Source: Pelotomaculum isophthalicicum JI (GTDB lineage Bacteria; Bacillota; Desulfotomaculia; Desulfotomaculales; Pelotomaculaceae). From it: a stretch of 64,000 nt of DNA. Shown piece by piece: positions 61,694 through 64,000 of this stretch. Position numbers and translations under genes: made by a program. The stretch covers positions 1 through 64,000 of the forward strand of contig NZ_JAKOAV010000002.1 in the NCBI RefSeq assembly GCF_029478095.1, read 5' to 3'. The notes beneath the pieces are model-generated. The model was not told where the DNA came from. It saw nothing but the letters and a program-made list of their open reading frames with translations, and did not search any database. How positions within the stretch are numbered: the stretch's first letter is position 1; each line of letters begins with the position of its first letter.

Positions 61694-62413
61694 TTGAGTG
61701 GTATCGTTCTGCAGGGACTGATCGCCGGTCTTGGAACATGCCTTGGAGCATTGCTTGTCATCGTACTCGGACGGATGCGCCCGGGCACCCTTTCGCTTAT
61801 GCTCGGCCTGGCCTCAGGGATAATGACCGCCGTAATCATTTTCGACCTTTTACCGTCCTCCCTTCGCTACGGCAGCCCGACAGCCGCCCTGGGCGGTTTT
61901 ATGGGGGGAATCGCCCTGATGCTGGCGCTGGATTTGGGGACCAATATATTCGCCCCCGTGACCTTTCCAGGAAGAGACTACTTGAAAATGGGTTACCTGA
62001 TCGCCACCGGTATCGCCCTGCACGATCTCCCCGAAGGGCTGGCTATTGCCGCCGGCTTCGCGACAGCCGAGAAACTTGGCCCGCTCCTGGTCCTGGCTAT
62101 CGGCCTGCACAACATTCCGGAAGGAATGGCGACGTCGGCGCCGTTGCGTCACGGGGGCTTAGGAGCAGGGCGGGTACTGGCGATTAATATTATAATCAGC
62201 TTAATTACACCTATCGGTACTTTCTTCGGGCTGGTCCTGGTTGAAAGCTCCCGCTCCTTCGTCGGCCCGCTGTTGGCTTTTGCCGCGGGTGCCATGACCT
62301 ATATTGTGCTCGGGGAACTTGCCCCCGAATCCCGCCGCAACAACCGGACACTGTCATATCTAGGTATGCTTTTCGGGTTGAGCCTGATCATCCTGCTGAG
62401 TTTTATTGTTTAA
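61694..62413 (+). CDS. ZIP-family metal transporter
   Basis: 239 residues with about eight membrane helices. Helix 4 holds HDLPEGLAIAAGF and helix 5 HNIPEGMATSAPL, the His/Glu binuclear metal site of ZIP proteins. It should import zinc or a related divalent cation. The TTG start is behind GAAGGCGGG. Its end overlaps the convergent YdcZ-type gene by 11 bases. Confidence 0.92.
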   Translation: MSGIVLQGLIAGLGTCLGALLVIVLGRMRPGTLSLMLGLASGIMTAVIIFDLLPSSLRYGSPTAALGGFMGGIALMLALDLGTNIFAPVTFPGRDYLKMGYLIATGIALHDLPEGLAIAAGFATAEKLGPLLVLAIGLHNIPEGMATSAPLRHGGLGAGRVLAINIIISLITPIGTFFGLVLVESSRSFVGPLLAFAAGAMTYIVLGELAPESRRNNRTLSYLGMLFGLSLIILLSFIV

Positions 62414-62855
62414 GGATAAGCCAGGCGCCCCCCGCCATTAATAGCGTCCCCAAAACATTCCATAGACTGAAAGGAATTTTTTCCATACCGAACAGGCCGA
62501 AATGGTCAACCAAACCCGCCGTGAAAACCTGTCCGACAATAATCGCCGTGGTGGCCGGCGCCACACCGACCTTCGGCATGGTACTGACCACACCATACAC
62601 AATAAGTACCCCCAATATACCACCAAGGTAAGTATACCAGGGAACATGAGAAATGTTTGCCAGGCAGCCGTCACCCAAGCGGCATACAAACAACAAAACC
62701 GTAACAAGCAATAGCCCGACCACGTGAACGACCAAAGTAGCTTCCCAAAGCCCGATTACTTTGCCCAAGGCTGAATTAATAGACCCCTGGATAGCCATAA
62801 TAATCCCTGCCAAAGCCGCTATAGCCAGGGGTAGAATCTCCGGTGTAATGTTCAT
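62403..62855 (-). CDS. YdcZ/DUF606 family membrane protein
   Basis: 150 residues with five membrane helices (PLAIAALAGIIMAIQGSINSALGKVIG, then LGGILGVLIVYGVVSTMPKVGVAPATTAIIVGQV). DUF606 proteins are half-size members of the drug/metabolite transporter superfamily; the substrate is unknown and they may work as dimers. GAAGGGGAA precedes the ATG at 62855. Confidence 0.85.
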   Translation of the reverse strand: MNITPEILPLAIAALAGIIMAIQGSINSALGKVIGLWEATLVVHVVGLLLVTVLLFVCRLGDGCLANISHVPWYTYLGGILGVLIVYGVVSTMPKVGVAPATTAIIVGQVFTAGLVDHFGLFGMEKIPFSLWNVLGTLLMAGGAWLILKQ

Positions 62856-62954
62856 TTCCCCTTCACCCGCTCCTTTTTCCATTGCATCTATTTATTTTCT
62901 TCCGTCCGGGTGGGGATTATTCTTCCGGCGAGGTATTGCCAATGAGTCTGATTT

Positions 62955-62990
62955 CAGATCTTGAGCAGACACCAGATCTTGAGCGGAACT
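62955..62990 (+). repeat. 18-bp tandem direct repeat upstream of hicB
   Basis: CAGATCTTGAGC occurs at 62955 and 62973. It lies about 60 bases before the HicB-like gene and just before a possible promoter (TTGTAA-N17-TAAAAT), so it may be an operator. Confidence 0.4.
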
Positions 62991-63048
62991 TGTAAATATT
63001 AGATGGTGCTAGTAAAATAATAGAAAGGTTGTACCAAAAGATGTTATT

Positions 63049-63267
63049 ATGATGAGAAACTACCTGGTCATAATTGAAAAGGCAAATGGTAACTTTTCCG
63101 CTTATCTGCCAGACGTTCCAGGAGTTATAGCAACAGGTAAAAACGTCGAAAAAACGCGCAAGGCGATTGAGACAGCATTAACAATGCATTTAAACGGGCT
63201 AAAAGAAGATGGTCTACCGATCCCCGAACCGGCTGCCCATGCCGACTATGTGGTTTCGGCAATATAA
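63049..63267 (+). CDS. Solitary HicB-like protein
   Basis: 72 residues: MRNYLVIIEKANGNFSAYLPDVPGVIATGKNVEKTRKAIETALTMHLNGL matches the HicB partial RNase-H fold. The usual DNA-binding tail is absent. No HicA toxin gene is visible on either side, so it is a lone HicB, a common situation whose role is unclear. The ribosome site is weak. A terminator follows, and the CRISPR region begins about 100 bases later. Confidence 0.8.
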   Translation: MMRNYLVIIEKANGNFSAYLPDVPGVIATGKNVEKTRKAIETALTMHLNGLKEDGLPIPEPAAHADYVVSAI

Positions 63268-63321
63268 AATACACCAGTAATGTACTCTATTTTTACATGG
63301 GATAGATATATTATTAGACTT

Positions 63322-63357
63322 ATAACCTTAGAACAACCCAAGGTTATTAATTTTTGT
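63322..63357 (+). terminator. Terminator after hicB
   Basis: ATAACCTT and AAGGTTAT pair around about ten bases, followed by TAATTTTTG. Confidence 0.75.
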
Positions 63358-63370
63358 GTCTAATAAGCTT

Positions 63371-63654
63371 CTTTCAATACTACGCACCCCTGCGGCGAGC
63401 GACTGAAAGATAAGTTGACGCAGCTGGCGTTTCAAGTCACACTCCTATATGGGGAGCGACTAACAAAAATAATTTCCTCTATATCCGGGGTCATTGTTTC
63501 ATTCCATGCTCCCATATTGGGAGCGATGCGCTAATTCGTAAGGTTGTTCTCGGATTACTTTGTTTCAACCCACGTACCCGCACGGGGTGCGACCTGTTTA
63601 ACCTGTAGGAGGTGCGGCTGTATATCGGTGGTTTCAATCCACGCACCCGCACGG
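63371..63654 (-). CRISPR. Eroded CRISPR array, type I-C-like repeat
   Basis: Five repeat copies at 63371-63403, 63429-63460, 63496-63527, 63562-63593 and 63631-63654. The best copy (63562, 32 bp) begins GTTTCAACCCACGTACCCGC and ends ACGGGGTGCGAC, matching the widely seen type I-C repeat, whose transcribed strand ends ATTGAAAC. Copies 1-3 carry many changes but keep GTTTCA and GAGCGA. The fifth is cut after 24 bases. Spacers are 25, 35, 34 and 37 bases. Decay at the left end marks the leader-distal end, so transcription would run right to left. No leader or cas gene is attached. Confidence 0.88.
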
Positions 63655-63665
63655 ATTTAATGAAA

Positions 63666-64000
63666 GTTTCAATTCCTCATAGGCAGGCTAAACACTTTCG
63701 GATAACAAAAGCACGACCTTTACTTACTCCGTGTTTCAATTCCTCATAGGCAGACTAAAAACGTTAAATATTTTTTCGCTTCTTTTGTTTGCTCTGGAGT
63801 GTTTCAATTCCTCATAGGCAGACTAAAAACCCGCCAAATAAACGCGCGTTACATAAGGATATGGGGTTTCAATTCCTCATAGGCAGACTAAAAACTCAGT
63901 TTGTTGGTTATGGTATCTCCTATTTATACCAGTTTCAATTCCTCATAGGCAGACTAAAAACTCAGAGCGGGAGAAGGAGGAATGGTAAATGTTTAGGTTT
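63666..64000 (-). CRISPR. CRISPR array with 30-bp repeat, running off the window
   Basis: Repeats at 63666-63695, 63733-63762, 63801-63830, 63866-63895 and 63932-63961. The consensus begins GTTTCAATTCCTCATAGGCA and ends GACTAAAAAC. The first copy has two changes; the other four are the same. Spacers are 37, 38, 35 and 36 bases. A fifth spacer of 35 bases (63962-63996) is followed by GTTT at the window edge, so the array continues. The transcribed strand ends ATTGAAAC, as in type I-B/I-A/III systems. The changed first copy marks the leader-distal end, so leader and any cas genes should lie to the right, outside the window. Confidence 0.96.

Follow-up and report, generated by a model that had tools for sequence, protein, structure and literature searches.

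The last 630 bases of the stretch of DNA analysed here, a 64-kb window at the start of contig C2 of a 3.6-Mb draft genome in 93 contigs, consist of two CRISPR arrays of different kinds that lie on the same strand. To their left is a gene for a YdcZ-type inner-membrane exporter (62403-62882, minus strand; Pfam PF04657), which is conserved in relatives and forms the chromosomal left border of a CRISPR island, and between this border and the first array, a type I-C remnant, the island holds a gene for a HicB-like antitoxin (63049-63267, plus strand; Pfam PF15919, E=1.3e-8). Only ~160-290 bp separate the exporter gene from a homolog of C2:82122-82352 in the relatives G005, G008, G011, G012 and G013, and a similar gene order is found at the exporter site in G014. 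The 19 kb that occupy this place here therefore represent an island, composed of the HicB-like gene, the I-C remnant, a type I-B array and an I-B cas operon. The nearest relative, G001, a member of the same genus, carries an I-B array with a slightly different repeat in the same place, preceded by sigI, an rsgI-like gene and a third gene; no clear I-C tail was found at that site. The same relative also carries, at G001:C6:65723-75000 (L069), what by eye seem to be type III effector genes beside broken pieces of cas8b.

The I-B array occupies positions 63666-64000 of the window on the minus strand and continues to C2:71612, where it is followed by its leader and cas operon. It comprises 120 repeats, 118 of them identical, separated by unique spacers of 35-40 nt. 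The original prediction, whose view reached only the first units of this array, had proposed extending the sequence to the right in order to type the system, and the extension led to the whole array and to a complete I-B operon in the order cas2-cas1-cas4-cas3-cas5-cas7-cas8b-cas6 (C2:71782-81776, minus strand), with the gene set typical of the subtype (Cas8b of the Csh1/TM1802 family, Cas7/Csh2, Cas5b, Cas3, Cas6 and Cas1b). Cas1b (417.9 bits) and Cas6 score above the NCBIfam cut-offs and Cas_TM1802 above the Pfam cut-off; the Cas5b, Csh2 and Csh1 models match as well, but under the strict NCBIfam cut-offs. The reading frame of cas1 (C2:72070-73078; L009:10070-11078) is without ~31 N-terminal residues; an ATG is present upstream, but in a different frame and beyond a stretch of eight A, which may reflect either a real frameshift or a sequencing error. 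A gene for a PHD-like antitoxin (C2:73674-74123; L009:11674-12123) is found on the opposite strand between cas4 and cas3.

The terminal, oldest repeat of the I-B array (63666-63695, minus strand) differs from the array consensus at two positions. At position 22 it has a G, as do the consensus I-B repeats of G011, G012 and G019, and because it thus keeps the older base of the family, it probably marks the genuine old end of the array. With its 120 repeats, complete operon and degenerate old-end repeat the locus resembles any type I-B CRISPR-Cas array with a degenerate terminal repeat, except that here the terminal repeat is followed by an array of another type and not by plain flanking sequence. 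Both array types and the degeneration of terminal repeats are already well known; the direct abutment of unlike array types with a shared polarity is uncommon in the data searched.

The second array, at 63372-63654, consists of five copies of a type I-C family repeat spaced 57-69 bp apart. Counted against the reference GTTTCAATCCACGCACCCGCACGGGGTGCGAC, the copies that start at 63372, 63429, 63496, 63562 and 63631 have 11, 9, 9, 2 and 0 mismatches, the final value referring to the 24 nt still present, which agrees with the description in the original prediction of an eroded I-C-like array ending in a repeat cut at 24 of 32 nt; only a minor correction concerns the first copy, which starts at 63371/63372 and contains a one-base insertion. 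The possibility, raised at that stage, that the copies are low-complexity sequence can be excluded; the best other match to the repeat on either strand of the 64-kb window has 12 mismatches, and four in-register copies give 101 matches, compared with 53.7 +/- 2.3 (maximum 62) in 300 shuffles. All five copies lie on the minus strand. The oldest, R1 (63372-63403), is strongly degenerate. R2 (63429-63460) and R3 (63496-63527) show a 'GCTCCC..GGGAGC' stem variant, with nine mismatches each to the CACCC variant and six and five, respectively, to the variant of G005. R4 (63562-63593) has the 'GCACCC..GGGTGC' stem of the intact I-C array of this genome, and R5 (63631-63654) is identical to the consensus over the part that survives, its leader-side 8 nt being gone. 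The hairpin of R3 is intact (-12.2 kcal/mol), and those of R1, R2, R4 and R5 are weaker than that of the consensus.

That intact array, on contig C10, has 179 perfect or nearly perfect repeats (GTCGCACCCCGTGCGGGTGCGTGGATTGAAAC) and one more at C10:47349, and beside it lies an operon with Csd1 (Cas8c), Csd2 and the remaining genes. The copies in the window share its repeat length and spacing and, in R4 and R5, its sequence, but they differ from it in that all five are degenerate or cut and most of their hairpins are weakened. Neither an I-C leader nor I-C cas genes were found between the two arrays or elsewhere in the island, and 63372-63654 is therefore viewed as a remnant and not as a working I-C locus. 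The tail is unlikely to give rise to functional I-C crRNAs.

The remnant itself may be layered. R2 and R3 have five changes in common (positions 15, 19, 20, 22 and 27), two of which, at 15 and 27, form a compensating hairpin pair, and the live repeat of the relative G005, GTCGCTCCCTACATGGGAGCGTGGATTGAAAY, which has a cas2 gene beside it, shows the same base at each of the five. As at least five identical shared changes arise in just 0.2% of trials of simulated independent decay, R2 and R3 are probably copies of another variant of the I-C repeat, and the interval 63528-63561 may contain a second seam that is older than the first. Slow drift of the repeat offers a possible alternative to two I-C variants, since close variants are also mixed in an I-C array of a Scalindua relative: in this genome (G458; L108:8245-9438) a single array contains both GCTCCC/GGGAGC and GCCCCC/GGGAGC repeats, an example of drift within one array.

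The two arrays meet at a seam of 11 bp (63655-63665), ATTTAATGAAA: the last I-C copy stops at 63654 and the 30-bp I-B repeat, GTTTCAATTCCTCATAGGCAGACTAAAAAC, starts at 63666. These coordinates and the cut 24-nt copy bear out the central claim of the original prediction, that two unlike arrays are joined here in the same orientation. Known I-B and I-C repeat forms end with ATTGAAAC in the sense of the crRNA, so both arrays are read from the minus strand and have their leader ends on the right, a detail in which the earlier reading had to be mended. It follows that the trailer, or oldest end, of the I-B array abuts the youngest surviving, formerly leader-proximal side of the I-C array. An I-B array thus stands where the I-C leader should be, as had been proposed, and the data support this. 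It had further been suggested that recombination took place at the sequence shared by the two repeats, GTTTCAAT. Such a crossover is plausible, but the form of the seam disagrees with it: a clean product would have a whole I-C repeat and a whole spacer of ~33 nt before the I-B repeat, and what is found is an I-C repeat that breaks off after base 24, at its far end, with 11 bases of unrelated sequence between it and the I-B repeat.

How often arrays are joined in this manner was assessed with a scan of ~85,000 species genomes for the start of an I-C repeat with an I-B repeat of this class in the next 66 bp. Two records were obtained, one a comparable junction and the other a false positive, in Peptoniphilus, which was rejected because the I-B-like motif lies inside one spacer of an ordinary I-C array. 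No array of the reverse order, with I-C towards the leader and I-B towards the trailer, was found among 398 genomes of the phylum to which the window belongs, and no tail of another type was seen in 16 arrays checked, 15 of relatives and the one on C10, nor in the arrays of four Scalindua relatives. The seam is thus as uncommon as had been supposed. A direct precedent for hybrid, chimeric or fused arrays was not encountered in the open literature, which was the part of the literature searched.

The comparable junction lies in a metagenome-assembled genome of Candidatus Scalindua arabica (JAANXD010000051.1), where 18 I-B repeats are followed by a 33-nt spacer and then by two I-C repeats of the same polarity. 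As in the window, I-B is on the leader side and I-C on the trailer side of the same strand; the Scalindua array differs in that the junction is clean, the spacer intact and the I-C repeats undegraded, and in that its leader and cas genes are unassembled, the array reaching the end of the contig and cas1 having been found nowhere in the assembly. Its I-B spacers measure 35-39 nt and its I-C spacer 34 nt, so the junction spacer has the I-C length, such as a crossover inside the shared ATTGAAAC end would be expected to leave. The flank beyond the I-C end is present without an array in a sister genome (G456).

One is left with the question of how an I-B array with a complete operon came to occupy the missing leader side of an I-C array within an island of defined borders. 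The explanation that we favour, and consider rather more probable than its rivals combined, is that one locus records a type I-C system succeeded in place by type I-B, with loss of the I-C leader and cas genes. A type I-C array would first have stood at the island with its oldest end to the left; the leader and cas genes to its right would then have disappeared, and that side would have passed to a type I-B array equipped with a leader and cas operon of its own, new I-B spacers entering ~8 kb away while the I-C tail decayed. We infer that I-C arrived before I-B from the polarity of the arrays and the decay of the tail; the comparison with related genomes that had been proposed for finding the unfused state yielded empty sites and the I-B array of G001 with no clear I-C tail, and among these relatives none had an I-C array alone at the site. 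Most probably the arrays were joined by an exchange, or by end-joining, into the I-C array beside the terminal I-B repeat, after which a small loss of ~31 bp would have shortened R5 to the 24 nt that remain. If the exchange was a crossover at the shared ATTGAAAC, which is plausible, ~66 bp would be expected from the start of R5 to the I-B repeat; as this distance is 35 bp in the window, the crossover model needs the added deletion of ~31 bp. An argument against succession in place is that the seam lacks the clean form which a crossover at the shared end would give. The independent Scalindua case supports it, with the same polarity, I-C on the trailer side and a junction spacer of I-C length; its weight is lessened by the metagenomic origin of that assembly, the contig end in the array and the missing cas1, and the window genome is itself a draft.

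A cut in the middle of an I-C repeat followed by 11 non-repeat bases would also fit an illegitimate breakpoint, as expected if complete I-C and I-B loci had once stood in tandem and a single deletion had taken out the newer I-C units together with the leader and cas genes, so that what was left came by chance to lie against the flank of the I-B trailer. This scenario, which we regard as possible but unlikely, has the merit that one event is enough. However, a chance deletion would not be expected to end less than one spacer length from the I-B repeat, as the seam does. Recombination with trimming is preferred only mildly, because a single deletion must end 11 bp from the terminal I-B repeat by accident and leaves the clean Scalindua junction unexplained.

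It is also conceivable, albeit improbable, that the I-C tail is a short orphan array that arose or was carried in independently, for instance on a mobile piece that also carried the HicB-like gene, and that its closeness to I-B is accidental. Nothing corresponding to 62927-63371 is present in the nearest relative, which has other genes (sigI, rsgI-like) there, and the intact I-C system on C10 could act on orphan repeats. Against such an origin stand the strand and polarity shared with I-B, the direct abutment, and the finding that 62927-63430 has no second copy in the genome. An assembly artefact, in which unrelated contigs were joined at short shared repeat sequence, might be suspected in a draft of 93 contigs with each repeat in >100 copies, but it is very improbable, as the joined parts have no overlap of assembly length, the I-C copy is cut before the join and followed by 11 unique bases, R1-R4 are degenerate and differ from every copy on C10, and synteny with relatives holds in both outer flanks.

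If succession in place is the correct reading, it could be one instance of a recurrent route of type succession, in which I-B modules take over I-C arrays via the shared 3' repeat end (ATTGAAAC) and leave the old spacers as a dated under-layer, with two turns recorded here, from I-C 'CTCCC' to I-C 'CACCC' to I-B. This extension of the argument is put forward as a conjecture that may well prove wrong. The replacement of one CRISPR type by another in a genome, with or without survival of the old memory, can seldom be observed; since a composite array preserves the two layers in sequence, it can serve to test directly whether recombination between arrays drives the turnover of types. Such junctions are rare, the scan having given a single real case in addition to the window, and together with the shared polarity this makes up a concrete pattern that can be tested across all genomes.

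The C10 array was also considered as the missing half of the I-C remnant and was rejected, as it has a perfect terminal repeat at C10:47349 with a flank of its own. Inside the oldest spacer of this 180-repeat array lies a transposon-like insert of 3.7 kb (C10:47381-51124; L011, L012), which carries genes for an rve/Mu-type transposase, an AAA ATPase and a DUF6431/HTH protein.
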